Shown here piece after piece: positions 1 through 17,660 of a stretch of 64,000 bases of DNA (position 1 is the stretch's first letter; each line of letters starts with the position of its first letter). The notes beneath the pieces are model-generated. The model was not told the DNA's origin. It searched no databases and worked only from the letters and a program-made list of their open reading frames with translations. Position numbers and translations under genes: made by a program. Location: positions 62,001-126,000 of the forward strand of contig JAFSTN010000042.1 of the NCBI GenBank assembly GCA_017450485.1, given 5' to 3'. This DNA comes from Lachnospiraceae bacterium. Its GTDB lineage: Bacteria; Bacillota; Clostridia; Lachnospirales; Lachnospiraceae.

Positions 1-539
1 CCATTATCCCATTTGTATTTCTCTTCTTTTTCAAAGGTTCCCTTTTTGACCACAATAGCATACTGACGCTCTGCAGCAAGCTCATGACCGGCAGTCTCAA
101 GTATCCGGTTCATTTCTTCGTCAGTTGTATCCGCATCGATCACGGTGTAGCTGACGCCCATGAGTTTCAGCATATCCAGAGTGATCTTTCCTTGGTATAC
201 ATGCTGAGGTTCATCATGCACTCCGGGCTCTCCGCGCCATCCTATGATGAAGAGCATGGGCACTCCGTATACGTCTTCATTGGCCAACGAAGCCAGCGGA
301 TTGATGATATTTCCTTCGCCGGAATTCTGCATATATACACATGCAGGGTGACCTGTCGATAGATATGTACCTATCGCCAGACCGACAGCCGCGCCTTCAT
401 TTGCCGTCACATAATGACTGATACCGCCCTTATAACCGTTCAGCCCGTCACAGAATTGAGTCAATGTCGAATCGGGCACTCCGGTGAAGGTCGTGATATT
501 CATTTTACGAAGCTCATTAAGCAGATATGATGCTTTCAT
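1..539 (-). CDS. aepY: phosphonopyruvate decarboxylase, N-terminal part (runs off the window)
   Basis: Thiamine-diphosphate enzyme that decarboxylates phosphonopyruvate to phosphonoacetaldehyde, the step that pulls the unfavourable PEP mutase reaction forward. About 179 residues are visible and the C-terminal TPP-binding half lies beyond position 1. The visible part matches the family N-terminal domain: the opening reads LRKMNITTFTGVPDSTL, the catalytic-Glu segment TANEGAAVGLAIG has Glu at about residue 48, and there is a GWRGEPGVHDEPQH stretch. The start is set by GAGGAGAGTCA just before the ATG. It overlaps the end of the cytidylyltransferase gene by 23 nt, so the two are translationally linked. 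The family call is firm. Biosynthetic rather than catabolic use is inferred from PEP mutase upstream. Confidence 0.93.
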   Translation of the reverse strand, partial: MKASYLLNELRKMNITTFTGVPDSTLTQFCDGLNGYKGGISHYVTANEGAAVGLAIGTYLSTGHPACVYMQNSGEGNIINPLASLANEDVYGVPMLFIIGWRGEPGVHDEPQHVYQGKITLDMLKLMGVSYTVIDADTTDEEMNRILETAGHELAAERQYAIVVKKGTFEKEEKYKWDN

Positions 540-1215
540 TGACTCTCCTCAATTCATCCGGGGTATCGATCTCCGTGATCTGCCCCTCTCGCACTTCTCT
601 GATCCTCAGATCCAGCTTATCCAGATTGCGGTCAACGACTTCATCCCAGAACAGTTCATCACTGCCTTCGGAGCGGTACACCTCCTCGATGCATCTCCTG
701 AGTATCAGCGAATCCTCGGCTGTGAAAAATGATACACCGACCATATTAAACGTATCCGTTCCGCCTTTTCCTACCCGGACTATACGGTCTCCTTTCATGT
801 CGAAAACCCAGTCATCGGAAAAACCTTTCTGCATACGTCCGAAATAACAGGAATGAGTCAGCTTCTCTCCGAATATCGACGGATCGGAAATATACAGATC
901 CGACTCACAGATAAATACATCGGAATCACCCAGAACTTCGCGGGCAGCATATATCGAGGATATGTTGTTCTTCACATTATAATCGTCGTTGGATATCAGA
1001 CGTACGTGATCATACTTTCTCGTCAGCGGTTCAAATGAATGACCCAGATATCCCGTAACGACATATATCTCATCCACCGGATAACCGCTGATCGCATCTA
1101 TGACGGTCTCGATCATCGACCGGTCTCCGACTTTCAATAAGGGCTTGGGACAGTTGTCGGTGAGCGGCCTCATCCTGCTGCCCAGTCCCGCAGCCATAAG
1201 TATCGCTTTAGTCAT
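517..1215 (-). CDS. LicC/PntC-like CTP:phosphocholine or 2-aminoethylphosphonate cytidylyltransferase
   Basis: A 232-residue nucleotidyltransferase of the LicC type. The nucleotide-binding loop LMAAGLGSRMRPLT is at residues 6-19 with KPLL after it. NNISS at 83-87 and ESDLY at 104-108 fit the phosphocholine/phosphonate-activating branch rather than the sugar-1-phosphate branch. The family makes CDP-choline-like products; PntC relatives convert CTP and AEP to CMP-AEP. The surrounding AEP pathway makes AEP the likely substrate here (inference). The gene starts 2 nt after the PEP mutase stop and overlaps the decarboxylase start, so it sits inside the operon. Phosphocholine specificity cannot be excluded from sequence alone. 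Confidence 0.85.
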   Translation of the reverse strand: MTKAILMAAGLGSRMRPLTDNCPKPLLKVGDRSMIETVIDAISGYPVDEIYVVTGYLGHSFEPLTRKYDHVRLISNDDYNVKNNISSIYAAREVLGDSDVFICESDLYISDPSIFGEKLTHSCYFGRMQKGFSDDWVFDMKGDRIVRVGKGGTDTFNMVGVSFFTAEDSLILRRCIEEVYRSEGSDELFWDEVVDRNLDKLDLRIREVREGQITEIDTPDELRRVNESIISA

Positions 1216-1217
1216 TT

Positions 1218-2513
1218 TTACAGCTCATCTATCAATGTGATTATCTGTTTAATAGGCATCAGACGCTCATCGGCTTCATATGCCCTGTGATACTTGAGTA
1301 TATCTTTTGCAGTCCGTTCCATTGCGGGAAAAGCACTTCTGGTCAGCTGGTTTGCATATATTACGATATTGACGCCGTGAGAAGCAAGCTCGGCTTCCGT
1401 GATCGTATTGAACGAAGACGGAACAACCACTATGGGTGTCTCGCTGTCCTCCTGTCTGAATCTGTCACAGAACTCCAGTATCTCATCCGGTTCCTTGCGT
1501 CTGCTGTGTATCATTATGCCATCCGCTCCGGCTGCTACATAAGCACGGGCTCTGGTAAGGGCATCCTCCATTCCCTGATTCAGGATCAGACTCTCGATAC
1601 GTGCTATTATCATAAAATCATCCGTCAGCTGTACCTTTTTACCGGCTTTGATCTTTTCACAGAAATGCTCGACATCATCCTGTGTCTGCTCAACCTCGGT
1701 ACCAAAGAGTGAGTTCTTCTTAAGGCCTATCTTATCTTCGATAATGACGGCTGATACACCCATTTTCTCAAGAGTTCTGACCGTATATACAAAATGCTCC
1801 GCAAGTCCGCCCGTGTCCCCATCAAAGATTATGGGCTTGGTCGTAACTTCAGTGACATCATCTATAGTCCTGTATCTGGAAGTCATATCCACCAGTTCGA
1901 TATCAGGCTTTCCCTTTGCCGTGGAATCACAGAGCGAGCTTATCCACATGGCATCGAACTGGTCCAGTTCTCCGTCATGCTCCACTACGGTCTTCTCGGC
2001 TATGAGTCCGGTCAGACCGCTGTGAACCTCGATCGTCTTAACTATGTCACAAATCTTAATGAGCTGTCTGAGTCTGGGGCGTCTGTATTCCGGCATAGCC
2101 AGTTTCTCACGCATCTGAGTATCGGCCCTTTTGACGTCTTCATTACGCGTGTAGGCTACTTCGATCAGCTTTCCGCCGTATTCCCCGAGAAGAGCGATCA
2201 CGTTCTCGCGTATGGCCTTCTCCGGTCCCTCGACCCAGTTATCACCATGGATCACGTAGTCGGGCTTAAGCTCATGAATGACATCATCATACATAATGGT
2301 ATGCTGAGTGATAACTCTGGAAACCCCGGGTATGGCTTCAACCATTCTGACCCTCTCCTCGAACGAGATCGAAGGGAAACGGTTGAACTTAATGGAAGCT
2401 TTATCATCCATTACTCCCACCACCACTTCACCGTATTTCCCGGCCTCATTTATGATGTTCAGGTGGCCTTCATGGATGATATCAGTGCAGAAACAGGTAT
2501 ATACAACAGCCAT
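1218..2513 (-). CDS. aepX: phosphoenolpyruvate mutase with N-terminal cytidylyltransferase-like domain
   Basis: Makes the carbon-phosphorus bond by rearranging PEP to phosphonopyruvate, the entry step of nearly all known phosphonate biosynthesis. The mutase signature EDKxxxKxNS is exact at residues 259-268 (EDKIGLKKNS), which separates it from isocitrate-lyase relatives. The C-terminal barrel spans about 145-431. Residues 1-135 form a separate TagD/CCT-type nucleotidyltransferase domain with the HxGH motif (HEGH, 14-17). This two-domain layout is known for some PEP mutases, but the job of the N-domain is not established. AAGGAGTGAGAT precedes the ATG. It lies 3 nt after the transaminase and 2 nt before the next cytidylyltransferase. 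Confidence 0.95.
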   Translation of the reverse strand: MAVVYTCFCTDIIHEGHLNIINEAGKYGEVVVGVMDDKASIKFNRFPSISFEERVRMVEAIPGVSRVITQHTIMYDDVIHELKPDYVIHGDNWVEGPEKAIRENVIALLGEYGGKLIEVAYTRNEDVKRADTQMREKLAMPEYRRPRLRQLIKICDIVKTIEVHSGLTGLIAEKTVVEHDGELDQFDAMWISSLCDSTAKGKPDIELVDMTSRYRTIDDVTEVTTKPIIFDGDTGGLAEHFVYTVRTLEKMGVSAVIIEDKIGLKKNSLFGTEVEQTQDDVEHFCEKIKAGKKVQLTDDFMIIARIESLILNQGMEDALTRARAYVAAGADGIMIHSRRKEPDEILEFCDRFRQEDSETPIVVVPSSFNTITEAELASHGVNIVIYANQLTRSAFPAMERTAKDILKYHRAYEADERLMPIKQIITLIDEL

Positions 2514-2516
2514 ATC

Positions 2517-3650
2517 TCACTCCTTATATGCAACCGGAACGCTGACACCGCACACGTTCAGAGCTTCCTTAAACACTTCGAAGAAAGCTTCGATATCAGA
2601 CAGGTCGATAGCTCCGAGAGAGCACAGTCTGAACATTCCGCGCTTCTCGACCTTACCGGGATAGATCGTAAATCCTCTGTCATAACAATGGTCATGGATA
2701 CGCTTAAAGTCCCAATTATCATCATCGGGATAAAGAGCTGCAACCACCAGTCCGGCACAGTCCTCCCTTTTTACAAACATACGGAAACCAAGCTCCTCAA
2801 GACCGTCATACAATGCATTGAAAACTCTGAAGTGACGATCCCATTTAGCGGTCTCTCCTTCTTCAAAGTATTCCTTCAGGCCCTGTCTTGCGGCATATAT
2901 CACCTGAACCGGAGGCGTAAAATGCATCTCACCGTGCTCGATCGCATATTCATACTGCATATAGAGGTTGCAGTAGTATGAACGCTTCGGATATTCACGA
3001 GATTTCTCGATCAGTGACCTGTTGCCTATAACATACGACAATCCTGTCATGGCCATGATACCCTTCTGCGCGGAAGCCATCAGGAAATCCACGTTATCCG
3101 CTTCTATATCGATGGGGCGTATAGCATATGTGGAAGTGGTATCCACAATAAACACCGCTCCTTGCTCATGAGCCAGAGCACCTATCTCACGAATGGGGTT
3201 CAGCACTCCTGTACCGGTCTCATTGTGCGTGATATAAACTATGGCAATATCGCGATCCGCCTCCAGTGTTCTGCGGATTTCTTCTATATCAGCCGGTCTG
3301 TCTATCGGGAGCTTAAGATCGATATGCGGCATACCGTAATAAGTGCATACCTCAACCGCTCTGGAGGAATACGCACCGTTATTTACGACCAGAACCTTTT
3401 TGCCTTCGGGCAGAAGAGAATTAAGGCATACATCTATATTGATCGTACCGGATCCGCAGAAAAGCACTGCCGCATACTTAACGGGATCTGCATGAACGAC
3501 CTTCAGAAGACCTGCTTCAACCTCACGCATTACACCCACAAACTCTTCTTCTCTGGGACAAATATCCGGTACCACCTGTGCAAGTTTTACGCTGTCCGTC
3601 GTCGTGGCAGGACCGGGATTCAACAGTACATTTCGTTTGATCTGTGTCAT
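2517..3650 (-). CDS. phnW: 2-aminoethylphosphonate aminotransferase
   Basis: PLP-dependent class V aminotransferase, 377 residues, of the PhnW/AepZ family. It interconverts phosphonoacetaldehyde and AEP. The N-terminal signature NVLLNPGPATTTDSVK is typical. The Schiff-base lysine is K196 in SAQKG, and D170 (in VDTTSTY) is placed to hold the pyridine nitrogen. In degradative operons this enzyme is paired with phosphonatase. Here it is paired with PEP mutase and phosphonopyruvate decarboxylase, so it should run toward AEP. AAGGAGAAGATA precedes the ATG, and the gene follows the polymerase fusion by 15 nt. Confidence 0.93.
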   Translation of the reverse strand: MTQIKRNVLLNPGPATTTDSVKLAQVVPDICPREEEFVGVMREVEAGLLKVVHADPVKYAAVLFCGSGTINIDVCLNSLLPEGKKVLVVNNGAYSSRAVEVCTYYGMPHIDLKLPIDRPADIEEIRRTLEADRDIAIVYITHNETGTGVLNPIREIGALAHEQGAVFIVDTTSTYAIRPIDIEADNVDFLMASAQKGIMAMTGLSYVIGNRSLIEKSREYPKRSYYCNLYMQYEYAIEHGEMHFTPPVQVIYAARQGLKEYFEEGETAKWDRHFRVFNALYDGLEELGFRMFVKREDCAGLVVAALYPDDDNWDFKRIHDHCYDRGFTIYPGKVEKRGMFRLCSLGAIDLSDIEAFFEVFKEALNVCGVSVPVAYKE

Positions 3651-3665
3651 TATCTTCTCCTTAGG

Positions 3666-5540
3666 TCATCTCTTTGAGTATTCGATAAGTTTCTTGATGA
3701 TATATCTGGCACCGGTCTCACCACTGTGTCCTATATTATCCAGATACTTATCTCTGACTGCGGCTATCGACTCGGGGGAGTACAGTTGCTCTGTCAGGAG
3801 CCTGTGAACCGAATCCGCTACGGTATCCAGCTTATCCACATCAACGGACACTCCTATCTCGTCTCTGACCGTTACATCAAAAGGCTCTATGCCTATCTCC
3901 TCATAATCGGGGTTGATGATCTTCATCGGTGTGTTTATATACAAAGTCGGTTTAAGAGTCGTAAACGAATACTCATATGCTATACCGGACCAGTCCGTCA
4001 ACATGACATCGGCATCCATAACAGTTTTGTTGGATGAGAAATCCGTCTGAAGCTCAAAGTCCCGATGATCCTTATACTTCTCACCAAGCTCGGCCAGCTT
4101 ATCGCCGAACAGTCTGACATATTGAGGATGAGGGCGGAGCGTCACATGATATCCGCGTCCCAGAAGCTGATCCAGTATCTCACCTATACACAGATCGAGG
4201 AGATTATCCTGCTGCCATGAAGGCGCTATCAGTATCTCCGGGATCTCATTCTTCGTGCTCTCACGACGACTGTAATCCGCGATCATGTCATCTATCAGGC
4301 CATAACCGGTACGAATGATATTCTTGGCGGGCAGATCGTAGATGCGCTCCTGCTCCCTGATCTCGCGCTCGGTGAGTTCGTTGGGAACAAATATCGTATC
4401 GAAATGATCCAGAGCATGCTTACGGTAACTCAGATTCACATCACCCATGGCATGATCCATATATATGTACTCAATATTATCCTGCACGATAGATTTCTTC
4501 AGGTGATAGGTCTGCAGATCGGGTGTCGTCATGACCATGATGTCCGCTTCGAGCTTCATCATAAGGACTATCAGTTTGTTCTCGCCTATATAATATGTTT
4601 TGAATCTTTCCGATTCTTTCCCGTATATGTCATCTGCCGGATCGCCGGAGATATAATGTATCACGATATCGGTTTTTTCCAGGATATACTCGATCACATT
4701 CTTGAAATATTTATAGAAGCCCTTCTTTTCGGCATAGAATACTATCTGCTTATAGCCGTATTTGAAGAAGCGTTTGTAATCCTGCTTTTCTCTGAGCTGA
4801 TCCTCTTTGCTCATTTGACTCTTCGCGGACTTGTGATACTGCTCAACCTTATCAAGCTCTGCTCTGCTCTCGCCCAGTGCCTGATAGTCAATATGTTTCT
4901 TCGGATTAATACAGGCATTCAGGATATAGAGCTGTACTACGGCGAGCAGATTGCCGACTGTCCAGTACATCGCCACACCGCCGTTTACGAGAAATCCCAG
5001 ATAGAGCGAAAGCCCCACGCTGATACCCATGGTGGTATACTTATTGACCTTGCTCTGTTCGGACTGAAGCACATTGACACGGTTCTGTATAAAACACATG
5101 AACCAGGCTGACACTGCCGCGATGATCGGGACCAGGATATATTTCCCGAGTACATGGCCCGGGATCAGGCTTAAATCAAATCCGGCAAACCATGTGTTGT
5201 CTATGGATGTTCTCTTGATACCCTCTATAACGCCCATAAGAAGCACCAGCTGCAGGATCACGGGGACCAGATCCAGCATCGGATGATAGTGATCTCGCTT
5301 GTAGAGCTTGTAATTCTCCTCGGAGATCATGTCCTTGTTGCCAAAATATCTGGCCTTGATCAGATTCATCTCCGGATACATCTTCACCATCTTGATGGAG
5401 TTGACCTGTACCATCACGGATATGGGTATCATAATGACACGCGTCAGTATCGTAAAGATAACGATAGCCCACCCGTAATTACGGGTGAGCTCATAACACC
5501 AGTTAAGTATAGCTGCAAAAAAAACACCTATTATATTCAT
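3666..5540 (-). CDS. YidC/Oxa1-like membrane domain fused to CDP-glycerol glycerophosphotransferase-type (TagB/TagF) domain
   Basis: A 624-residue two-part protein. Residues 1-215 look like the YidC/Oxa1 insertase core: several hydrophobic helices, a conserved-type Arg at 34 (LTRVIMIP), a charged hairpin at about 45-85 ending KLYKRDHYHPMLDLVPV, and later helices at about 90-108, 135-150 and 170-207. After a charged linker (215-262), residues 263-620 match the TagB/TagF polyol-phosphate transferase fold, with DHAMG at 362-366, LRPHP at 468-472 and TDWSGIAYEY at 515-524. TagF-type enzymes transfer a phospho-alditol from a CDP donor to a surface polymer at the membrane face. Inside an AEP operon the donor may be CMP-AEP (inference). 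A canonical YidC role is unlikely to be the main job. It overlaps the small membrane protein gene by 4 nt. Confidence 0.88.
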   Translation of the reverse strand: MNIIGVFFAAILNWCYELTRNYGWAIVIFTILTRVIMIPISVMVQVNSIKMVKMYPEMNLIKARYFGNKDMISEENYKLYKRDHYHPMLDLVPVILQLVLLMGVIEGIKRTSIDNTWFAGFDLSLIPGHVLGKYILVPIIAAVSAWFMCFIQNRVNVLQSEQSKVNKYTTMGISVGLSLYLGFLVNGGVAMYWTVGNLLAVVQLYILNACINPKKHIDYQALGESRAELDKVEQYHKSAKSQMSKEDQLREKQDYKRFFKYGYKQIVFYAEKKGFYKYFKNVIEYILEKTDIVIHYISGDPADDIYGKESERFKTYYIGENKLIVLMMKLEADIMVMTTPDLQTYHLKKSIVQDNIEYIYMDHAMGDVNLSYRKHALDHFDTIFVPNELTEREIREQERIYDLPAKNIIRTGYGLIDDMIADYSRRESTKNEIPEILIAPSWQQDNLLDLCIGEILDQLLGRGYHVTLRPHPQYVRLFGDKLAELGEKYKDHRDFELQTDFSSNKTVMDADVMLTDWSGIAYEYSFTTLKPTLYINTPMKIINPDYEEIGIEPFDVTVRDEIGVSVDVDKLDTVADSVHRLLTEQLYSPESIAAVRDKYLDNIGHSGETGARYIIKKLIEYSKR

Positions 5541-5839
5541 GCCTCACCATTGAATCCGTCAGATGATGCGCTGTCGTCAGATGAAGCATCATCGTCAAAA
5601 TGTATCTCTTTCTTTTCTTCCTCGCCCTTTCCTTTCTTAAGGAAGGCAAATATCTTGTGTCTGAAAATGGTAAGAGCGGCACCGAGTGCGATCACTACTC
5701 CGGCAACAGCCTGGATCACGTAAGTAACTGCAGAAGGATCAATATACGCATGTACATTGATAGTCTGCAGATTAAAACCCGCAACAAAAAAAACTGTGGT
5801 CATTATGATCCAACCGGGGATAAATCTGTTCTTTCTCAT
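5537..5839 (-). CDS. small membrane protein with acidic C-terminus
   Basis: A 100-residue protein with no function I can name. An N-terminal hydrophobic segment (about 8-30) is followed by AYIDPSAVTYVIQ and a second membrane helix (about 40-62), then a Lys/Glu stretch and an Asp/Ser-rich tail. Short proteins with an YIDP-type motif before a single helix recur beside envelope polymer genes, but I know of no assigned function. AAAGGAGAAGTAATT gives a clear start. The stop overlaps the ATG of the YidC/TagF fusion, so stoichiometric production and a physical partnership are plausible. A TATAAT box at 5878-5883 could provide an internal promoter, but its -35 is poor. Confidence 0.75.
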   Translation of the reverse strand: MRKNRFIPGWIIMTTVFFVAGFNLQTINVHAYIDPSAVTYVIQAVAGVVIALGAALTIFRHKIFAFLKKGKGEEEKKEIHFDDDASSDDSASSDGFNGEA

Positions 5840-5904
5840 AATTACTTCTCCTTTGTAATTGATCGATACAAAAAGCTATTATAACATATAATCGGTCGGA
5901 ATGG

Positions 5905-7647
5905 TCAGTTATCCGAGTCATACATAGGGATGATCTCGTCAGGCCCCGAGGCGATGGATTCTCTCAGGTCATCAAAGTCCCCGGTATAATCAAATCTGTA
6001 ATATACGTTCATATAGGCCTGCGATCCGGTGAAGATGTTCATAACCTTGGGATAGGCCATATCTTCGGTATGCCAGTAATATGATCTGGCGCGGGGTTCA
6101 TCCTCGGGTATCTCATCGATCCGTGGACCGAAGTATGAGCTGTCACCGCCGACTGCCTGAACAATGGTCGGCAACAGTTCACAGTGTGAGATCGGAGCAT
6201 GATTAACCTGCATCTGATCATGAGTTTCGCCCGGGTATTTGATGAAGAATATGACCTGAGGCTCCTCATCGCTTCCGTGATCCGAAGTGATGATTATCGT
6301 GGAATCATCATATTTGTCTATGGCCTTCAGCTGGTTCAGATACTCCTCCATCAGAGTCATGTTTCCCATGCATGTCTCAGCCAGGGTGGCATTATCCTTT
6401 TGGCGGCAGTCCGCCCCCACATCCCAGCTGTGAGCACCGTTCAGATGCTGGATCGCACACAGGTTGTGCCTGCTGTCCGGATCGACGGTAACGCCGTCTC
6501 TCATCATTCTGTCATAGAAGTCAAACAATGTGTGTTCTCTGTTAGTATTCTTGTATTTGACGATATTCACATACTCTTCGTATCCCGTATAAAACATCGG
6601 TTTGAGGATCTCCGGTGCAAACCGGTACGAGGAACACTTGGACATGGTGGATATCATCAGTTTCTTATCTATCACGGGTTCCTGTCCCTGATTGGTCAGA
6701 TTGTCAAACATGCCTTCAAGTATTCTGACGTCATTGTTGCCTCTTAGTATCTTGCCGTCGGGAGTATATACATTGATCTCATAATCATGGGAGTGAACGG
6801 TTTCAAAAAACTTCGAAGCTTTCTCGGTGAACCATATGTCATGAAACCATTCATCCATCGGCTGTGAAGCATCGACCTCGCTCCCCGAGAGCATGTGTGC
6901 TATCGAAGGAATGGTACCCATATATACGCATTCATCATTATCGTAATATGTAAAGTCATGCAGATAATCGAGAGCACCGGGATATTCCGCAAGCATCGTA
7001 TCAATATAGGTATTGCTGAAATAATCCAGGATAAAAACCATGACGTTATCCCCTTCGGATACCATCATCTGTTTCTCTCCCGACATGTACCATTCTCCGG
7101 GATCCCTCTCAAAGCACGTCTCTTCGCCTCCCGTTATGAGCGAAACTATCGCAACCAGCTGGATGGCCAGCAAAAAAGCCGGGATTCCGGGGATGATCTT
7201 ATGGACCGAGGTGTTACGGGGCACGATTGCAACGACGACCATCAGAGCGATCAAAGCCAGCCAGACGATCAGACCGGTCACACTCGCATGGGGGTCAGCC
7301 TTGTATCCATCGGGATTCTGTCCGAGCAGATCGAGATTCTTGTTCAGAAACATGACCTGAATGTATCCGGCCACATCCACGGCGCTGATGACTGCACACA
7401 GTATCCGCATGATCTTCTCCGGCAAAAGTGCCAGAAGAAAAGTAAAGATGAGCGTGACAATCAGGCATACCGTGACCATCAGTCCGAAGAATTCCTTAAA
7501 AATGAACTCAAACTCACTGTGATTTACAAAGAATACCTCCGTGGGTCCGAAAACAAATATCATATAACAAAAGGCAAGTACCGGAAATAAAGCAAATATC
7601 GATTTTTTAAGCAGTTTCTTCAGCATAATAGTTCTCCTGTCTGTCAT
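5905..7647 (-). CDS. membrane sulfatase/alkaline-phosphatase-fold protein (phosphotransferase-like)
   Basis: A 580-residue protein with four or five N-terminal membrane helices (about 15-175) and an extracytoplasmic alkaline-phosphatase-superfamily domain (about 198-560). Metal and nucleophile motifs are visible: FILDYFSN (D208), MGTIPSIAHML with T245 as likely nucleophile, SDHGSDEE, and a late VNHAPISHCELLP histidine segment. The fold includes LTA synthase and phosphoethanolamine transferases, so it could modify a surface polymer or hydrolyse a phospho- or sulfo-ester. The substrate is unknown. Two starts are possible: position 7647 (AGGTGGAG before it) or the in-frame ATG eight codons on at 7626 (AGGAG before it). 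It is the first gene of the phosphonate operon. Confidence 0.85.
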   Translation of the reverse strand: MTDRRTIMLKKLLKKSIFALFPVLAFCYMIFVFGPTEVFFVNHSEFEFIFKEFFGLMVTVCLIVTLIFTFLLALLPEKIMRILCAVISAVDVAGYIQVMFLNKNLDLLGQNPDGYKADPHASVTGLIVWLALIALMVVVAIVPRNTSVHKIIPGIPAFLLAIQLVAIVSLITGGEETCFERDPGEWYMSGEKQMMVSEGDNVMVFILDYFSNTYIDTMLAEYPGALDYLHDFTYYDNDECVYMGTIPSIAHMLSGSEVDASQPMDEWFHDIWFTEKASKFFETVHSHDYEINVYTPDGKILRGNNDVRILEGMFDNLTNQGQEPVIDKKLMISTMSKCSSYRFAPEILKPMFYTGYEEYVNIVKYKNTNREHTLFDFYDRMMRDGVTVDPDSRHNLCAIQHLNGAHSWDVGADCRQKDNATLAETCMGNMTLMEEYLNQLKAIDKYDDSTIIITSDHGSDEEPQVIFFIKYPGETHDQMQVNHAPISHCELLPTIVQAVGGDSSYFGPRIDEIPEDEPRARSYYWHTEDMAYPKVMNIFTGSQAYMNVYYRFDYTGDFDDLRESIASGPDEIIPMYDSDN

Positions 7648-7998: not shown

Positions 7999-8400
7999 TT
8001 AAAAATGTACTATAAAACCATCCTCTTCTATATTATTTCTTCTTAGCTCTGTTCGTATACACTTCAAGGCATTCCTATCATATATTTTGTAATATAGGAA
8101 CATCGCGATAAAAGCAGGTATTATACCCAACACAGCACATACAAGGGATAATTTAAAACTATAGAACTCATTCTGTTCTTCAGCAATGCCGATATACCCT
8201 ATGAATTTGGGGATGTCATCACCAGACACCCGACCATTATCTATTGATTCTCTGATATTTACATCCTCCGGCGTGATCCATATTGTGCGTTCATGCTCTT
8301 TATATGCACCGCGGATACTTCCATATGTAGCACATACCAATAACATGAATACCAAAAGGTACCATTTATATCTAATGAATTGAAAAAAACTTTTATTCAT
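7999..8400 (-). CDS. two-helix membrane protein of unknown function
   Basis: A 133-residue protein I do not recognise. One hydrophobic helix near the N-terminus (about 11-30) and a second at about 83-105 flank an external, charged loop of about 50 residues (HERTIWITPEDVNIRESI and on). The end is cytoplasmic and Arg/Glu-rich. That helix-loop-helix plan is also seen in chain-length regulators, but the loop is too short to claim that. Its start overlaps the end of the GT-C glycosyltransferase gene by 8 nt, so the two are co-translated and probably work together. Base composition is AT-rich like its partner. Confidence 0.7.
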   Translation of the reverse strand: MNKSFFQFIRYKWYLLVFMLLVCATYGSIRGAYKEHERTIWITPEDVNIRESIDNGRVSGDDIPKFIGYIGIAEEQNEFYSFKLSLVCAVLGIIPAFIAMFLYYKIYDRNALKCIRTELRRNNIEEDGFIVHF

Positions 8401-9964
8401 CCCCGTTCTCCATATAAACGCAATTATATCCTCGATGGTTCATTAATAACACGGCATCATCCGGTATTAACAAGTCCTCGGCTATATACATAACTACAGA
8501 GTCCGTACCAGTGATTCTGCCGGAAAGAATGTCTTTTAGATTCAGATCGTTGTATCCATCAGCATCAATACATTTGACTTCATCAAATTGTGCTATTTCA
8601 TAAAAATTGTAGTCCATAAGATGTAACTCCTGCATCCCTATGCACAGGCAGTCACAACTATGATACTCGTTAGCAAGCTCATTCCATTCAACGTCAACTG
8701 GATGAATTGCCTCAAAATAGTCATATAAAACGCCAACCCGGTTACCCATCAATGCAATACCTGATAGCAATAATATAGGAAAGGTTATCCGCCAATCATT
8801 AGTAAAAGTTTTGATAATCCATATTATAAATGCAGAGAATAAAAATAACACAGGTATATACTCAGGGGAATTATAATGATCTCTTCCCCCGTCAAGAGTA
8901 AATATGATCAGCAAATAAATAAGAGTAGAACACGCCGTAATGACCCAGGCATACCTACTATTAGTGATAGCCTCTTCCTTGCATAACTTTTTATATAGCA
9001 ACACGCATATAGCACATATGGCAAATATGAAGAGTATTAGCCGCCCCTGCCCGCTGAACCAATATTCATTGATGAAGCCAATCAGATCCCTTATTTTTTC
9101 TTTGTTCCACCCGTATATTTCTGTATGCTTTCCCTGCTGATTAAAAATCACCTGCCAAATCATCCAAGGAAATATTATAAGGACAGACATGATTCCTATC
9201 ATCCCTGTAAACAGATAATTTATAAGAGCATAAAACCTTTTCTGAATGATGAATCTGATTATCTGAACTAACGTAACACAAAATGCATAAACATAGAAAT
9301 AATTGTGAGATAAACATCCCAGGATCACACATAGTATAAACTGTATTAAGCGCTTACGGCTCCATCCGTTAATATCACTTAATATATGGATATATAGATA
9401 CCAAAAGCACATGGCTTCGAGCAATATATACATTCTAAGATTAAAGATCTGCGATACCATACCGCCTTGAATTGGAATAATAAGGATTGGCAGCGCAGCA
9501 TATATATAATTTGAATATAAGGTCTTGAACAGTAACCCAAACAGCAGGTCTATGATCAGAATACCGAGAATATTAACTATCCCAGCATACATGTTTGAAT
9601 AAGTACCGGGAAAAACAGAGCATACCGTATGAATTAACATATAATATAGCGGTGGATGAACATCAATCCTTTGATGCCAGTATACTCCTTTATAATCGAA
9701 ACGATCATAGTCGTTTACAAGATACCATTCTCTGAGTATTTCAGCGTTAAACCATCCGTTTGTATTCGGAATAGCATCTATCACTTCTTTATTAAAGAAT
9801 AGTGGCGAATATGTATTATTTGCCAGAGTGTATGTGAATATCATATCTCCGGCAATACTGATATTCTTAGTGGCGGGAATTATTAAATGAAGTTGGATAC
9901 AAACAGAAATTATTACAAGTAATATTTGAAAAAATCCACCGAACTTACTGCAGTTTGATATCAT
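8393..9964 (-). CDS. GT-C fold membrane glycosyltransferase (GT39/ArnT-like)
   Basis: A 523-residue polytopic protein with about ten membrane helices. A large first external loop ends in IDVHPPLYYMLIH, the acidic-xxx-PPLYY pattern typical of polyprenyl-phosphate-sugar-dependent GT-C enzymes. Such proteins move a sugar from a lipid carrier to a surface protein, lipid or polymer on the outer face. The acceptor cannot be told. TAGGAGCAGCGC precedes the ATG. The gene is divergent from an XRE regulator, with two operator-like repeats in the 83-nt gap, so repression by that regulator is likely. Composition is clearly more AT-rich than the flanking operons, suggesting recent acquisition. Confidence 0.8.
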   Translation of the reverse strand: MISNCSKFGGFFQILLVIISVCIQLHLIIPATKNISIAGDMIFTYTLANNTYSPLFFNKEVIDAIPNTNGWFNAEILREWYLVNDYDRFDYKGVYWHQRIDVHPPLYYMLIHTVCSVFPGTYSNMYAGIVNILGILIIDLLFGLLFKTLYSNYIYAALPILIIPIQGGMVSQIFNLRMYILLEAMCFWYLYIHILSDINGWSRKRLIQFILCVILGCLSHNYFYVYAFCVTLVQIIRFIIQKRFYALINYLFTGMIGIMSVLIIFPWMIWQVIFNQQGKHTEIYGWNKEKIRDLIGFINEYWFSGQGRLILFIFAICAICVLLYKKLCKEEAITNSRYAWVITACSTLIYLLIIFTLDGGRDHYNSPEYIPVLFLFSAFIIWIIKTFTNDWRITFPILLLSGIALMGNRVGVLYDYFEAIHPVDVEWNELANEYHSCDCLCIGMQELHLMDYNFYEIAQFDEVKCIDADGYNDLNLKDILSGRITGTDSVVMYIAEDLLIPDDAVLLMNHRGYNCVYMENGDE

Positions 9965-10376: not shown

Positions 10377-10380
10377 TTCG

Positions 10381-10454
10381 CGTGCGTGAGAGGATTCGAA
10401 CCCCCGACACCTTGGTCCGTAGCCAAGTGCTCTATCCAGCTGAGCTACACACAC
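10381..10454 (-). tRNA. tRNA-Arg (anticodon ACG)
   Basis: A complete 74-nt cloverleaf on the minus strand. The acceptor stem GTGTGTG pairs with CACGCAC through one G-U and is followed by a G discriminator. The D arm is GCTCAGCTGGATAGAGC. The anticodon stem CTTGG/CCAAG encloses loop CTACGGA, giving anticodon ACG, read as inosine for CGN arginine codons. The T arm is GGGGGTTCGAATCCTCT. No CCA is encoded. A decayed tandem copy lies immediately upstream and both share a strong promoter. Confidence 0.95.
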
Positions 10455-11640: not shown

Positions 11641-14600
11641 TTATTTCCTTCCGATCCGTCCCATATATCCGTCCGCCCATTCGGTTCCGGACTTACGGAT
11701 CAATATGCGTTCGGGCACCACGCCCGGATCAACGGCATATATTGAGAGTTTATTGTCTCCGCTGTTCATCTGCATGGTCACTGTCTTACGATGTTCCTGA
11801 TCCAATGCACTTACACACCACTCCGGACAGCTGTTCTCACCACCCATGTAGTTATCTCCCACCATGGAAATGACCTGCGCGAGACCATCGTTTATCTGCA
11901 TGCCGACTCTGAGCCGGCCGCTCCCGTCAATAGGATTGGACGGAGCAGTGATCAGTGTCACATCATATGATCCGGCCTCGGGAGCATACAGGCTGTAACT
12001 TACCGAAGGTGCGTTATCTATATTGAAGTGAGCATCCACGGGATAGGCTTTGATCGCAGTCCTGTACTTACCGTAAGGACTGATCTTCACAAAACGTCCA
12101 CCGCCTGCCTCTCGTTCGGCATCCGCATCATCGGCATCGATCACCAGGCCCAATGCATCTTTACCAAGTTCACGCAGCACATTCTTCGGTATGTCACCTG
12201 TATATTTCTCCGGCATCACCGGAATAACTCTTTTCTTTACCCCCTCTTCGGGAGTATACACATCCGGACCGTATCCTGCAACCGCAACCAGTATATCTGC
12301 ATGACCGGGACCTCCCGTGATCGTGATCACGGCAGTCTTCACATCTCCGGGAGCGATGTTTGCGACAGTTCTGTCCACACTTACGGTCAGCTCGCATACG
12401 CTTCCTATTCCGGCCATCGGATCCTCACGGAGCATATCCAGTTCCAATCTGTCATCACCGGCCTGTAGCGGTTCCGACAGTGTTCCGGATATGGAAGAAA
12501 GAGATACCCATTCACATTCGGTCTGTGCCTTCCATGAGAGTTCCCCTGCTCCGCCGTTTTCTATCGTCACGGATATCTGTTCGCACGCAGGATCAATAAG
12601 ATCGACCGCATACAATGTCTGCCTTGTCCAATCCTCTCCCATCGTGTATCGATCCGAATCGGTCAGCCTTACGATCATCCTGGATTTCCTGTACGGATAC
12701 ACCAGAGTACGCAACGGATATCTTGACTCCTCTTCATTCCAATGAACGAATCCTATATGCTCAGAGCTCATGATCCCGTTCCACTTTCCTTCAGCGGTGT
12801 CATGATACATCTGAGTCAGCACACTGTCTGTCTTGAAGCATTCATCCACATAGCGTGCATAGATATTTGCAGAGGGGCATCCCATACGGGCAAGTGCCGC
12901 ATTACGTCCGGCGCTGAGCTGCATATACAGCAGGTTCGCAGTGGCACGTACGGGGAATCCCACGAGTTCCTCATAAGCATCATGAACGGGAGTATCCTCA
13001 AATGCCTTACTGAGAGCAGCAGCCCTGCGATAAAGATCCGCAGCCGTTCTCAGCATATAAGTACTCTCACCGTAATTAAACGGATGATAGGTATCAGGTT
13101 GCAACGCTTCCGGCTTACGACAAAGATTGATATATGTATAGCCGTCGATCAGTTCTCCGATCTCGTGCCTCTGATCCTCATCGGCATATCCGCCGAACTG
13201 TTCATTCACCCATTTTTCCAGATAGTCGGTCGCACTCGACATATTGGAAGCGCCCCATCTGTCATAGTCATAAGCCAGATCAAAGAAGAAGGATATCGGG
13301 AGTTCCTGAGGCTTTAAGTCACCGGTATTCACGATCCATATCTTACGCACACCGGCTTCATAAGCTTCACTCATCTGCTCCCATGTCTTCGCAAGGGTAG
13401 TGGAATTTATCCATTCATACGATATCGGGCCGCCATGGTAATCGAAGTGATAATACATTCCGAAACCGCCGTCCCGATCTCGTTCCTCCTCTGCGGGCAG
13501 ACCGCGCATATTGCCGTGATTATCCTCACACAACATGCATGTGATGCCGTTTAATCCATCCCACGTACGCAGACCGGGCGTCGACTCATCACCGAGGTAA
13601 TATTTCTCAACTTCCTTGTATATCGCTATCATACGCGGAACACGGTTCAGGTCCGGATCTACGGTCTCACGTATCAGATCATTCTGTACCTCTACGACCT
13701 CTTTGATGTAATCGATATTATCCTTGAGTGTCGCCTCGGCTCCCATGATCTCGGAATCACGTTCTCCGCGCATTCCCATCGTGATGATATTCTCCAGATG
13801 GCCGTTACGCTTAAGACCGTCACGCCAATAGTTCGTAAGTCCTTCTCTGTTACGGTCGAAGTTCCAGGCGCTTCCGTACCGGGTATCATCGCCTTTCACC
13901 ATATCCCATTCCTCGCTGTGTCTTAAGCACGGCTCATGATGTGAATTACTCATCACGATACCCATCTCATCTGCCAGCTCGGCACTCGCCATGCCCGGAC
14001 CGTCCAGTGAGAAATTGGATGTCCACATGGCCGGCCACAGGTAATTACCCTTCAGCCTGAGAATAAGCTCAAACACATGCTCATACATCCCGGCGGTGAA
14101 TCCGCCGAAATGCTCAAATGTCCAATTGCCGAATGAAGGCCACTCGTCATTTATGAAAAGCCCCCTGTACTCTACGGAAGGCTCATGAGATACGATATCA
14201 TCCGCAGCGGTGATATTCACCTTATCTCTGTGCGCGGGCACTGCATCCGCAAACCACACCCACGGACTCACACCCAGCAGTTCCGAAATATGGAAAAGCC
14301 CGTATATCGTACCGCGCTTGTCACAGCCCAGGATCACCAATGCGCTTCCGCCTGCTGCCTCTACGGTCGTAAACGAGAATACCTCACGTTTCTTACTCAC
14401 CGCGGATACATCCACGGTTCCCGCGAGGCTGTCGGCCAGTTTACTGTGCCCAAGTGTGCCCGCATATATGCATCCGGCTTTCGGTTCCGTCTGTCCGGAC
14501 TCACAGGCGATCCCAGGGCATACTTCGGTCACCAGTTTTATATCATCAGCCACTTTGGCGGCTATCCGTTTTACACCGGGCCACTCATTATCGGCCAGCA

Positions 14601-14643
14601 CTATCTTCACTTCGGGATTGTCTTTTCCCAGGATCATATTCAT
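11641..14643 (-). CDS. glycoside hydrolase family 115 (xylan alpha-1,2-glucuronidase)
   Basis: A 1000-residue GH115 enzyme, which removes (4-O-methyl)glucuronic acid side chains from xylan or its oligomers. The N-terminal GH20-like support domain is followed by the catalytic barrel, with family blocks YRGLFINDEWPSFGNWTFEHFGG and LKGNYLWPAMWTSNF at about 170-215 and DNHGNMRGLP further on. The C-terminal third carries the beta-rich accessory domain usual for the family. No signal peptide is visible, suggesting hydrolysis of imported oligosaccharides in the cytoplasm. I place the start at the ATG at 14643, which shares a base with the TGA of the esterase gene, rather than the GTG one codon earlier. 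Confidence 0.92.
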   Translation of the reverse strand: MNMILGKDNPEVKIVLADNEWPGVKRIAAKVADDIKLVTEVCPGIACESGQTEPKAGCIYAGTLGHSKLADSLAGTVDVSAVSKKREVFSFTTVEAAGGSALVILGCDKRGTIYGLFHISELLGVSPWVWFADAVPAHRDKVNITAADDIVSHEPSVEYRGLFINDEWPSFGNWTFEHFGGFTAGMYEHVFELILRLKGNYLWPAMWTSNFSLDGPGMASAELADEMGIVMSNSHHEPCLRHSEEWDMVKGDDTRYGSAWNFDRNREGLTNYWRDGLKRNGHLENIITMGMRGERDSEIMGAEATLKDNIDYIKEVVEVQNDLIRETVDPDLNRVPRMIAIYKEVEKYYLGDESTPGLRTWDGLNGITCMLCEDNHGNMRGLPAEEERDRDGGFGMYYHFDYHGGPISYEWINSTTLAKTWEQMSEAYEAGVRKIWIVNTGDLKPQELPISFFFDLAYDYDRWGASNMSSATDYLEKWVNEQFGGYADEDQRHEIGELIDGYTYINLCRKPEALQPDTYHPFNYGESTYMLRTAADLYRRAAALSKAFEDTPVHDAYEELVGFPVRATANLLYMQLSAGRNAALARMGCPSANIYARYVDECFKTDSVLTQMYHDTAEGKWNGIMSSEHIGFVHWNEEESRYPLRTLVYPYRKSRMIVRLTDSDRYTMGEDWTRQTLYAVDLIDPACEQISVTIENGGAGELSWKAQTECEWVSLSSISGTLSEPLQAGDDRLELDMLREDPMAGIGSVCELTVSVDRTVANIAPGDVKTAVITITGGPGHADILVAVAGYGPDVYTPEEGVKKRVIPVMPEKYTGDIPKNVLRELGKDALGLVIDADDADAEREAGGGRFVKISPYGKYRTAIKAYPVDAHFNIDNAPSVSYSLYAPEAGSYDVTLITAPSNPIDGSGRLRVGMQINDGLAQVISMVGDNYMGGENSCPEWCVSALDQEHRKTVTMQMNSGDNKLSIYAVDPGVVPERILIRKSGTEWADGYMGRIGRK

Positions 14644-16442
14644 CACTCCACTACACCAAATCCAAGTATCGTGAACTTCTTGTGTTCCGACCCGGATGCC
14701 ATGCCGATCGTAATGGTATGCTCCTTACATTCATCACCGTCACATATGATCACCGCATTGCAATGTGTCCACCCGATATCAAGCGGGTTATATTCCATCA
14801 CTTTGCTGCCGTCGACATTGATGACAGCGGTTCCGTATTCAGCCAGTCCGGAGTCCTTTATCACAGCCAGAATCCTGGTACAGGTACACTTCATGACAAA
14901 GGGCTCGGGAGAATCCGAAGAGCCGTCGTAGTGCCAGTTATACGGGAACTCCGGTACAGGCACTATCTCCGAATCCATCTCGACTCTCTGAAGATCATCA
15001 TCGGTCTTATCAAAACTTCCGTCGGTGAATGATACCTCGGTCGAGAGAGGATTGTCCTTTTTATCAAGAAGCTCCACACGCTCGAATCTTCCGCTCAGCA
15101 GAGGCTTTTTTTGAAGTTGCGTCTCCACCTCTTTTGTCCAGAGCTCATCATATTTCTGATACTCGCTACTCCAGTGAAGCTCGCCGTATTCTTTGAGCTC
15201 CGCTTCTCTTTCACGCATCAGTTCATTGGTAGCTTCCAGGAAGAGCGCCCTGATACAGTCACTCATCACGATATGACCGTTGTTGCTGGGGTGATACTGA
15301 TCATAGAAGTACTGATTCTTTGATATCACGCGACCCTCGGAGGGAGACAGATTGAACTGCGGTGACACGGCATCCTTCACGCTGGCCATCGGCAGGTTAT
15401 AATGCATGCCGATCGGTCCCAGACGCTCCTGCAGATTATAATCATTGGAGAATACGGCAAAAAGGAGAATGACAGCGGGATGCCAGGGCAGAGCCAGCGC
15501 CTTTCGCACCAGACTCTCATAACACTCACCCTTCGTCTCATCTCCTTCATCATTCACAGCGAACTCTATGATGATCGCATCGGGTTTCTTAGCACCGTTT
15601 CTCAGAACGTCCCTCGTAAAGCGGACCATGCCGAGCTCCGACGGGGTTCCTCCCACCCCCGCTTTTACGAGATCAACCTTGGACAGATCACCTTCACAGA
15701 ACATTTCGGCAAAAACATTTGCGAAGGTACGTGCATAACATTTCTCGTGGATCGGTATCGCACCCGCCCCCTGTGTGATCGAACCACCGATAAAGCCCAG
15801 AGTGATCTGCTGTCCTTCCGCACTCTTGGCCAGGAGTTTCTTAATCCCGTCCAGATTACCCGGATTCAGCATGCTGTGTGATATCATCATCTGATATTCA
15901 ACGGAATCTATCGCCACTGCCGTGTCTGCACTCTGCTCAGGTGCCGTGAAACCGTCATTTAAGTAAAGTCTCACATCCACTGTAGCCAGCACTCCGGGAT
16001 GATCGAATTCAAATCTGATCTGCCCCACGGTATTGTCCGTATCCAGCCAGTCTACGCCGGCCATTTCTATCACCTGTTCCTCCCCGTTTGCGGAAAAAGT
16101 ACGGCTGATAACGGTAGCGGGATCAGCGGGATCGGCGGGATACATCTGCAGCACGAATGTAACATTCTCTTTTTCCTTTACAGATACGCTCACTCCCACT
16201 GAATGAACCAGCTTGCGGAACCCTGCCGTAGTCGGCATAAGGGAGAGTATCTCATCATCGGTCACATTGCCGACAAGACGCGCGGAATCGGCGAATCGCC
16301 CGTCATTCTCGTATATGAACTGAATGCCTTTCCCGTCACGCTGCGGAGAGGCATATATATCCTTATTGTGCATTACATAGAAATATTGTCTTTTCGCCGT
16401 GGGGTCTTTCGGAGCCTTGGGGCCGCTTAACTGATCTGACAT
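14643..16442 (-). CDS. SGNH/GDSL hydrolase, probable xylan-side-chain esterase
   Basis: A 599-residue protein. After a beta-rich N-terminal region (1-200), an SGNH hydrolase domain shows all four blocks: GFIGGSITQGAG (nucleophile Ser), GVGGTPSELG, IIEFAVNDEGDE (Asn) and DQYHPSNNGH (Asp-x-x-His). A beta-rich C-terminal domain follows. No export signal is visible. In its operon with GH115 it most likely deacetylates xylo-oligosaccharides (inference from context). ATGGAGGTGATCAC precedes the start, and a near-consensus promoter sits just upstream, so this gene opens the GDSL-GH115-DUF4352 transcript. Confidence 0.85.
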   Translation of the reverse strand: MSDQLSGPKAPKDPTAKRQYFYVMHNKDIYASPQRDGKGIQFIYENDGRFADSARLVGNVTDDEILSLMPTTAGFRKLVHSVGVSVSVKEKENVTFVLQMYPADPADPATVISRTFSANGEEQVIEMAGVDWLDTDNTVGQIRFEFDHPGVLATVDVRLYLNDGFTAPEQSADTAVAIDSVEYQMMISHSMLNPGNLDGIKKLLAKSAEGQQITLGFIGGSITQGAGAIPIHEKCYARTFANVFAEMFCEGDLSKVDLVKAGVGGTPSELGMVRFTRDVLRNGAKKPDAIIIEFAVNDEGDETKGECYESLVRKALALPWHPAVILLFAVFSNDYNLQERLGPIGMHYNLPMASVKDAVSPQFNLSPSEGRVISKNQYFYDQYHPSNNGHIVMSDCIRALFLEATNELMREREAELKEYGELHWSSEYQKYDELWTKEVETQLQKKPLLSGRFERVELLDKKDNPLSTEVSFTDGSFDKTDDDLQRVEMDSEIVPVPEFPYNWHYDGSSDSPEPFVMKCTCTRILAVIKDSGLAEYGTAVINVDGSKVMEYNPLDIGWTHCNAVIICDGDECKEHTITIGMASGSEHKKFTILGFGVVE

Positions 16443-16475
16443 GTGATCACCTCCATAGATGAATTCATGGTTTTA

Positions 16476-16504
16476 ATTATATGTTCTGTACAGATGCGTT
16501 TCAA
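16476..16504 (-). promoter_or_regulatory. sigma-A promoter of the esterase-GH115 operon
   Basis: Minus-strand -35 TTGAAA (16499-16504), 17-nt spacer, -10 TATAAT (16476-16481). Predicted start near 16469, giving a leader of about 26 nt before the esterase ATG. It shows that this operon can be expressed separately from GH43 and capA. Confidence 0.75.
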
Positions 16505-16520
16505 GTCGGGGCGAAGAGGC

Positions 16521-17660
16521 TCACTTCCACAGATCGCCCCATACATCGTCGCACAGATCCAGACAGTATTCATAGCTGAAGGAAGCGTCCTGCCTGCGGA
16601 TCTCATTTGCTTCGGCGAGTTCAGGTGTATACTTCGTCAGCGGATACACGGTCACGCCATCCCGGCCGGGACGAAGGTCGGTAACCAGTGCAGTCACACC
16701 ATAGTCGGATATCACTGCTTTCCCATCGTCGTCACGGGTCAGGGTAACTTCAGCCATTCCTCCCACCATACGATTTGCCGTGCCCGCTCCTGTCCCCGAT
16801 GTCCAGTTCACGTAGTTGCCGAGCGAGTAGTATACGAGCGTACCGCGTTCATCTGCACCGTCTGCATCGCTTTCTACCCATTCGACCGGTTCTATCACAT
16901 GAGGGTGAGTACCTATCACCAGATCGGCTCCGTTATCAGCGAATATCTGCGCCCACTTAAGCTGGCTGCTGTCCGGCGTCAGTCTGTATTCGGTTCCCCA
17001 GTGAGGACATACCACCGTGAAATCCGCCATCTCCTCTGCCGCCTTCAGATCGGCGATCACTCTGTCCTCGTCCAGCAGGTCCACGGCATACGGCATATCG
17101 GATGGTACAGGTATCCCGTTGGTCCCGTATGTATAGTTGAGAAAAGCGATATCCATCCCCCCGGCGTTGAGTATACTGATATGAGACTGATCCTCAGGAG
17201 AATCATGTATGCCCAGCACCTCTGTCTCCGGATGGTTTTCCTCCCAATATGCATAGCAGTTCCTGATACCTTTCGCCCCTTTATCCAGGACATGGTTCGT
17301 GGCATGCAGGACCACATCGAACCCCGCACCGGTCAGTGCATCACCCACTTCATAAGGAGCGTTGAAGGCCGGATATCCGGATACTCCCAGCTGTTCTCCG
17401 CCTATGATGACTTCTTCATTTACCAGCGCGATATCAGCAGCGGATATCATATCCGATGTTTCGGAGAAAATATGTGTATAGTCATAACTTCCATCTTCGC
17501 GTCGTGCAGCATCCTCCACGGGAGTATGCAGAAGTATATCTCCGACCATGACAAGGGTTACCGAAGGATCCGGAGCAGACACCTGAGCCCGAGCCGGAAG
17601 GCTTAATGCTATCGCCAGCGCTGCTATCTGCTTAGTCAAATGTAAATGAGTCAAATACAT
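16521..17660 (-). CDS. CapA-family (poly-gamma-glutamate synthesis type) metallophosphatase-like protein
   Basis: A 379-residue PGA_cap protein. The core opens VTLVMVGDILLHTPVEDAA and continues with DIALVNEEVIIGG, GFDVVLHATNHVLDKG, CPHWGTEYRLTP and GTHPHVIEPVEW, the metal-site blocks of the calcineurin-like CapA fold. I start it at the ATG at 17660, after GGGAGCGAGGT, which gives a clean signal peptide (ALAIALSLPARAQVSA). The longer frame from 17705 lacks a good ribosome site. CapA proteins help make or anchor poly-glutamate capsules in some bacteria, but most homologues have no proven role. Its place between GH43 and the esterase is unexplained. It overlaps the GH43 stop. Confidence 0.85.
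   Translation of the reverse strand: MYLTHLHLTKQIAALAIALSLPARAQVSAPDPSVTLVMVGDILLHTPVEDAARREDGSYDYTHIFSETSDMISAADIALVNEEVIIGGEQLGVSGYPAFNAPYEVGDALTGAGFDVVLHATNHVLDKGAKGIRNCYAYWEENHPETEVLGIHDSPEDQSHISILNAGGMDIAFLNYTYGTNGIPVPSDMPYAVDLLDEDRVIADLKAAEEMADFTVVCPHWGTEYRLTPDSSQLKWAQIFADNGADLVIGTHPHVIEPVEWVESDADGADERGTLVYYSLGNYVNWTSGTGAGTANRMVGGMAEVTLTRDDDGKAVISDYGVTALVTDLRPGRDGVTVYPLTKYTPELAEANEIRRQDASFSYEYCLDLCDDVWGDLWK

Follow-up and report, generated by a model that had tools for sequence, protein, structure and literature searches.

Two kinds of described pathway are among those closest to the system reported here. In the lic pathway (LicA-LicC-LicD), a small molecule, phosphocholine, is supplied, activated with cytidine monophosphate (CMP) and transferred. 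In the PntC-type clusters of T. denticola, O. uli and A. rimae, as presented in PMC6697681, a nucleotidyltransferase-fused phosphoenolpyruvate (PEP) mutase occurs with a separate LicC-like enzyme, the cargo is 2-aminoethylphosphonate (AEP), activated as CMP-AEP, and LicD-like phosphotransferases or glycosyltransferases lie nearby. The steps that follow phosphonate formation in surface pathways are called enigmatic in the same source (Rice et al. 2019, PMC6697681). We analysed a 64,000-nucleotide stretch of contig JAFSTN010000042.1 (G000:C27:62001-126000; hereafter the window) from the genome of an uncultured, gut-type member of the Lachnospiraceae (2.62 Mb in 49 contigs, 91% complete; GCA_017450485.1), and found at window positions 1-7647, on the minus strand, a seven-gene operon that shares with the PntC-type clusters the fused PEP mutase, the separate LicC-like enzyme and, by prediction, the AEP cargo and CMP-AEP. 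Where those clusters have their transferases, it carries a small YIDP protein between a YidC-TagF fusion and a sulfatase-fold protein. With the lic pathway it has in common the predicted sequence of supply, CMP activation and transfer, as well as a homologous cytidylyltransferase, whereas its predicted cargo is AEP and LicD was absent from the fusion loci searched. From its genes, the operon would work like a lic- or Pnt-type pathway of activation in which a TagF-type transferase performs the last step. The activation logic is already known; what is new is the module for transfer, with donors that can be swapped. In open-access papers (subscription papers being mostly outside the search), we found no account of a YidC-TagF fusion or of an AEP-linked glycerophosphotransferase, and the term CMP-AEP only in Rice et al.

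The genes run in the order sulfatase-fold protein, small membrane protein, YidC-TagF fusion, AEP transaminase, PEP mutase, cytidylyltransferase and phosphonopyruvate decarboxylase (lengths in amino acids, aa):

5905..7647, minus strand: sulfatase-fold membrane protein, 580 aa, with five long N-terminal helices (read as transmembrane) and an alkaline-phosphatase-superfamily domain
5537..5839, minus strand: small membrane protein, 100 aa, with (judged by eye) a signal-like helix, AYIDPSAVTY, a hydrophobic helix and a charged tail
3666..5540, minus strand: YidC-TagF fusion, 624 aa, candidate AEP transferase; YidC/Oxa1 fold at about 1-220, TagF-type GT-B fold at about 260-624
2517..3650, minus strand: 2-aminoethylphosphonate transaminase, 377 aa; TIGR03301, 426 bits against a cut-off of 361
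1218..2513, minus strand: PEP mutase, 431 aa, with an N-terminal CTP_transf_like domain (residues ~1-140); PF01467 and PF13714, TIGR02320
517..1215, minus strand: LicC/PntC-like cytidylyltransferase, 232 aa; Pfam NTP_transf_3; Glu104 aligned with Glu104 of T. denticola PntC (Tde-PntC)
1..539, minus strand: phosphonopyruvate decarboxylase, first 179 codons; the full gene, G000:C27:61415-62539 (L023:14415-15539), encodes 374 aa

We consider it likely that AEP is made, activated as CMP-AEP and moved to a surface acceptor by the TagF-fold domain. The PEP mutase, decarboxylase and transaminase would take PEP to AEP, and the LicC/PntC-like enzyme would take AEP to CMP-AEP. Beyond this point we infer the role of TagF as transferase, the sulfatase step and the acceptor. 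The TagF-fold domain would transfer AEP at the inner face of the membrane, an acceptor hydroxyl attacking the AEP phosphorus while CMP leaves, with the bond chemistry of TagF and cytidine diphosphate (CDP)-glycerol. The YidC-fold domain and the AYIDPSAVTY protein would keep the enzyme membrane-bound and probably assist in presenting or moving a membrane-borne acceptor, and the sulfatase-fold protein would act on the same product outside.

The seven-gene operon had been proposed in a first-pass annotation of the window, and its coordinates, strand and gene identities were all borne out. That most junctions are overlaps or gaps of under 20 nucleotides (nt) holds for five of the six: gaps of 15 nt (fusion/transaminase), 3 nt (transaminase/PEP mutase) and 2 nt (PEP mutase/cytidylyltransferase), and overlaps of 4 nt (small protein/fusion) and 23 nt (cytidylyltransferase/decarboxylase); the sulfatase gene and the small open reading frame (ORF) are 65 nt apart. 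The decarboxylase, of which 586 bases lie beyond the window, is the last gene, and the next two downstream (encoding PilZ and CTP_transf_3 proteins) are convergent. In a same-genus relative (L025, which also appears as L112, an uncultured Lachnospiraceae metagenome-assembled genome), all seven genes recur in unchanged order, with 97-100% identity for the five genes from fusion to decarboxylase (98% over the fusion in L112), 93% for the small ORF and 83% for the sulfatase. The uninterrupted order fusion-transaminase-PEP mutase-cytidylyltransferase-decarboxylase recurs in 20 of the 80 closest loci. The grouping is thus more than chance, given the conserved order in relatives. Promoter and terminator scans, which gave about as many sites as shuffled sequence or fewer, were not used.

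Membership of curated families supports the synthesis of AEP from PEP by this operon. As the first-pass annotation had proposed, all three enzymes could be identified, each above its cut-off: the PEP mutase scored 407 bits against 320 for TIGR02320 and carries the motif EDKIGLKKNS (EDKxxxxxNS is retained in 59 of 59 aligned relatives), and the complete decarboxylase scored 452 bits against 312.5 for TIGR03297. Overlooked at that stage was the PF01467 domain encoded at the N-terminal end of the PEP mutase. Its best solved structure is Fom1 (5x3d, E 1.2e-31), which likewise bears a cytidylyltransferase-like N-terminal domain on a PEP mutase and shares the HxGH motif (HEGH in the window, and retained in nearly all relatives). 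It differs in GISSTR, which is absent from the window and from 59 of 59 aligned relatives, L061 retaining the SS pair. GISSTR is needed in the cytidylyltransferase domain of the Fom1 type, which makes it more probable that activation falls to the separate LicC-like enzyme; the Fom1-like domain may be a sensor of cytidine triphosphate (CTP) or phosphonate, or a relic. PF01467 fusions occur in 23.6% of PEP mutases, and a fused together with a separate nucleotidyltransferase is also known, according to Rice et al. (2019, PMC6697681).

The placing of a LicC/PntC-like cytidylyltransferase beside the PEP mutase was upheld by solved structures, the best being LicC (1jyk, E 2.8e-33), followed by T. 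denticola PntC-AEPT (6pd1, 2.8e-10). Glu104 and Glu196 of Tde-PntC lie near the AEP amine, the LicC counterparts being Asp105 and Asp192, as described by Rice et al. (PMC6697681). At the first of these sites, Glu was found in 42 of 42 AEP-linked enzymes (those within three genes of a PEP mutase) and in all 12 CobD-like fusions, compared with none of the six choline-kinase fusions, which have Cys, Ser or Pro. Rows with less than 28% identity were dropped from the survey, as were those shorter than 200 or longer than 700 aa and, for AEP rows, any that reached 320 aa; the remaining rows are related, and the few near copies were counted. The window's own enzyme has Glu104, as in Tde-PntC, and Asp191, as in LicC; therefore, one of the two published features fits. 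Homology and this residue pattern support the proposed activation of AEP as CMP-AEP.

The YidC part of the fusion is well defined (PF02096, 95 against 35 bits; 3wo7, TMt 0.74), with Lys or Arg aligned to an Arg of the B. halodurans YidC helix that is presumably the groove arginine. The TagF part has a GT-B fold and is above the PF04464 cut-off; its closest solved folds include the TagF, TarL and Cps3D polymerases, and a profile that included TagF relatives reached the Cps3D and TarL structures. His363 and His471, which may correspond to the catalytic histidines of TagF, are invariant in the alignment. Unlike the TagF/TarL polymerases and Cps3D, the TagF domain is here fused to YidC and accompanied by an AEP-making donor cassette, and polymerisation is not implied. 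The fusion occurs across Clostridia, mostly in Lachnospiraceae; the 565 stretches confirmed in the scan matched patterns of the TagF part and are not necessarily all fusions. An assembly artefact was considered and ruled out, as 79 of the 80 closest loci encode the fusion as one frame.

PEP mutase was present in 46 of 397 family genomes, namely, in 13 of 21 with a fusion and in 33 of 376 without (Fisher p 1.3e-8, uncorrected for kinship), and in nine of the 13 it lay within the stretch fetched round the fusion. The 23 fusion loci drawn from the family, window included, comprised nine with an AEP cassette, four with a choline kinase, three CobD-like, two with another cytidylyltransferase and five with none seen. 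Among the 80 closest loci, 35 had an AEP cassette, so that the neighbourhood of PEP mutase and YidC-TagF, which had been put forward as a check on the operon, does recur; the others had a transaminase only (3), a CobD-like cassette (10), a kinase (4), a cytidylyltransferase only (6) or none (22). All these neighbourhood counts are lower bounds, because ORFs were called longest first, which let antisense frames supplant genes in, for example, L148, L149 and L157, and gave no frame for a fusion in L184. The idea that every fusion locus serves phosphonates was likewise considered and rejected; where PEP mutase is missing, the fusion often has a kinase or CobD-like cassette beside it. In the kinase type (L102, L104, L107 and L108; Pfam on three), the cytidylyltransferase carries a fused choline/APH kinase domain, and a BCCT transporter adjoins one such locus, L107. 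In the CobD type, it is fused to a CobD/HisC-like pyridoxal phosphate domain (L090, L094 and L095; Pfam on two, NCBIfam on L090). Here we infer ethanolamine phosphate as the product from a CobD match that is below cut-off (169 against 290.5 bits in L090) and from the cytidylyltransferase partner; a Campylobacter precedent for serine-phosphate decarboxylase was searched for in the literature and not found.

Two further arrangements were noted. At L110:6180-9061 (plus strand), a PEP mutase lies beside a radical-SAM/CTP_transf_like fusion and the YidC-TagF fusion, perhaps for a modified phosphonate headgroup; at L175:6076-8539 (plus strand), a class V aminotransferase and a TagD-like/oxidoreductase fusion lie beside YidC-TagF, perhaps for another activated amino-alcohol.

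Judged by their domains, the cassettes should be interchangeable and should yield CMP-AEP, CDP-choline or CDP-ethanolamine, and relatives of the fusion probably attach choline or ethanolamine groups instead of AEP. Every cassette should give a CMP-activated, amine-bearing small headgroup, and the part they share should therefore be the transferase. For 63 fusion proteins whose loci could be labelled, a quick tree requires 10 changes among the three labels, compared with 17.8 in shuffles; the label correlates with the tree yet swaps repeatedly, as expected for one transferase scaffold retuned to related donors. Two kinds of cassette were found together in none of the 102 fetched fusion loci (the family draw plus the 80 closest, some genomes being in both sets). 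Of 21 fusion genomes, 17 have LicD, and where it shares a contig with a fusion it is no closer than about 72 kb (some contigs are short). Because cassettes do not co-occur and LicD is this distant, we see in the TagF-fold domain the strongest candidate for the phosphonate transferase that is otherwise missing. A scan of nine ORFs at the locus gave no match to the CDP-alcohol phosphatidyltransferase family PF01066, which supports the earlier view that the transfer machinery departs from the phosphatidyltransferase route; it is unlike the LicD route as well. In the window's own genome, a canonical TagF homologue lies on G000:C29 (region of about 32-60 kb) with eight LicD genes within about 28 kb, and three more LicD genes lie on C41 at about 49-53 kb.

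Among the 80 closest loci, 46 have the small AYIDPSAVTY protein and 54 have a sulfatase-like ORF, short contigs lowering both counts. All four examined TagF proteins without a YidC domain have an N-terminal YIDPGTGS segment, and the sulfatase of L099 bears a YIDPS motif. The sulfatase fold given in the first-pass annotation is backed by structure prediction and profiles, though not by Pfam, where the match falls short of the cut-off (23 versus 25 bits). In the predicted model (pLDDT 91.9), five long helices at the N-terminal end are followed by an alkaline-phosphatase-superfamily domain. Foldseek gave PbgA/YejM, phosphonate monoester hydrolases and LtaS among its best matches, at TM-scores that are low for the model as a whole (0.30-0.37). 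The family profile matched LtaS (2.6e-12) and phosphonate monoester hydrolase (3.9e-10). Thr245, His401, His406 and Asp456-His457 are invariant across 36 aligned relatives; the His and Asp-His residues align significantly with LtaS, while the Thr does so only in a segment of no significance. The protein seems to resemble LtaS, EptA and PbgA in its predicted helix bundle and its superfamily, with residues of metal-ligand type aligned to LtaS, and differs from them in its link to a YidC-TagF protein, with which it is fused in five relatives. These single YidC-TagF-sulfatase chains of 1205-1420 aa occur in L125, L151, L153, L167 and L171 (Pfam on L125). Of 14 sulfatases with 38% identity or more to that of the window, 13 were in AEP loci (10 of 11 loci); the remaining locus, L160, has the decarboxylase at a contig end. 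Together, these distributions strengthen the view of the fusion, the small protein and the sulfatase as a recurring module with swappable headgroup cassettes.

Several observations weigh against the transfer of AEP by the fusion as set out above. None of the five triple-fusion loci has a recognised headgroup cassette nearby, so that fusion by itself does not link the sulfatase to AEP loci; sulfatases of less than 38% identity, from other subfamilies, are in AEP loci for 22 of 65 proteins. No cassette was seen near the fusion in five of 23 drawn and 22 of 80 closest loci, and in four of the 13 genomes with both genes the PEP mutase is apart from the fusion (G332 has three fusion loci, one of them on the contig of the PEP mutase at a distance of about 22 kb). 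At the first cytidylyltransferase site, 13 other cytidylyltransferase-like neighbours were mixed (4 Glu, 6 Asp), and an unfused enzyme of the Glu type occurs in the kinase locus L104. The second site, mapped via LicC only on the assumption of an offset of 20 in chain numbering, is Asp, as in LicC, in 40 of 42 AEP-linked enzymes, compared with Glu in Tde-PntC. The TagF domain reaches only a modest Pfam score of 33 bits, and no solved structure was matched when its single sequence was used as the query. Finally, the quick tree carries long-branch warnings, and its starred branches alone force at least seven AEP, at least five CobD-like and at least four kinase changes.

One alternative gives the sulfatase-fold protein a transfer step of its own. 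EptA-type and LtaS-type enzymes use phospholipid donors, and TagF could put AEP on a lipid, giving an analogue of phosphatidylethanolamine that is flipped and from which the sulfatase-fold enzyme passes AEP to an outer polymer. The one-chain fusions, the 54 fusion loci with sulfatase-like ORFs, the resemblance to LtaS, phosphonate monoester hydrolase and (for the model) PbgA/YejM and the tracking of AEP loci by the window's sulfatase subfamily all fit such a two-step relay. The missing cassettes at triple-fusion loci and the low TM-scores do not, and this analysis found no enzyme of the TagF type that has a simple lipid as its acceptor; we regard the relay as possible, if doubtful. A broader version, in which TagF loads AEP-, ethanolamine- or choline-phosphate on an inner lipid, a repurposed YidC fold and the YIDP protein carry it across and the sulfatase passes it to an outer polymer, we hold to be unlikely; if true, bacteria would alter their surface charge chemistry by swapping the donor cassette alone.

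The TagF domain might rather polymerise or cap a teichoic-acid-like chain, with AEP an occasional substituent added by another enzyme. TagF, TarL and Cps3D are indeed among its nearest solved folds and the genome has one canonical TagF homologue, but no gene for glycerol- or ribitol-phosphate activation was recognised among the nine ORFs scanned, the cassette beside the fusion is of the AEP, choline or ethanolamine type where seen (L175 having a TagD-like domain) and LicD is absent near the fusion, which makes this reading quite improbable. It is very unlikely that the fusion serves as an insertase for a membrane protein that then receives the AEP: the Lys or Arg of its YidC fold and the presence of a second YidC-like frame (457 aa) in the genome would suit that role, but it is joined to a GT-B transferase in the relatives retained for the analysis and no conserved client was seen besides the small protein. 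A soluble, antibiotic-like phosphonate natural product is suggested by the N-terminal domain of the PEP mutase, whose nearest solved structure is that of Fom1, an enzyme of fosfomycin synthesis. Against this, the operon encodes three membrane proteins, one of polymer-transferase fold, no gene for tailoring or export was recognised in it and its Fom1-like domain is devoid of GISSTR; we give this explanation hardly any weight.

With regard to the acceptor of the favoured AEP transfer, the neighbours at 40 AEP loci (118 of the 129 same-strand genes without a label) were most often glycosyltransferases of family 2 (9), then acyltransferases (6), with O-antigen ligase-like proteins (3) and many housekeeping genes also present among the first 25 of 134 families. 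They hint at a surface glycan yet fix no polymer. On capsular glucosamine, AEP is described in Bacteroides fragilis (review, PMC12413058). The first-pass interpretation of a modification at the level of a polymer rather than a lipid was supported as far as AEP synthesis, a CMP-type activation gene and a transfer machinery unlike a CDP-alcohol phosphatidyltransferase are concerned. The TagF fold is compatible with attack on a CMP-activated donor, but the preference for polymer over lipid found no such support, as the neighbours are mixed and the acceptor could equally be a lipid or a glycolipid, perhaps an intermediate one.

Upstream of the operon lie a tRNA-Arg and two orphan membrane ORFs, both possible associates:

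7999..8400, minus strand: membrane ORF, 133 aa, without Pfam match; 54% identical in L025
8393..9964, minus strand: polytopic membrane ORF, 523 aa, without Pfam match; 62% identical in L025

The stretch at 7999-9964 has a low GC content (0.358) and is less conserved in L025 than the genes from fusion to decarboxylase; it could be a variable insert or a system-specific glycosyltransferase. By eye, the 523-aa protein looks glycosyltransferase-C-like, which is unproven, and it has 28% identical relatives near the fusion in L095 and L149. The tRNA-Arg(acg) at 10380-10454 borders the operon on one side, and on the other (L023:10241-14428) is a block with, by eye, diaminopimelate epimerase and aspartyl-tRNA synthetase; the site between them is a possible insertion site. 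Further along, GH115, GDSL esterase and GH43-CBM6 genes (11641-19332), with a PGA_cap-family protein among them, suggest xylan use.

For a group of gut and rumen bacteria, the fusion provides a specific transferase candidate, and the group includes named isolates: the AEP cassette is present in Lachnospiraceae bacterium A4, IMSAGC_011 and IMSAGC_002, the CobD-like one in COE1 and the kinase in 1xD8-48. Gene content would predict whether a surface carries phosphonate, phosphocholine or phosphoethanolamine. The cassettes would amount to a natural swap experiment on headgroup specificity, built around a YidC fold with a possible non-insertase use.

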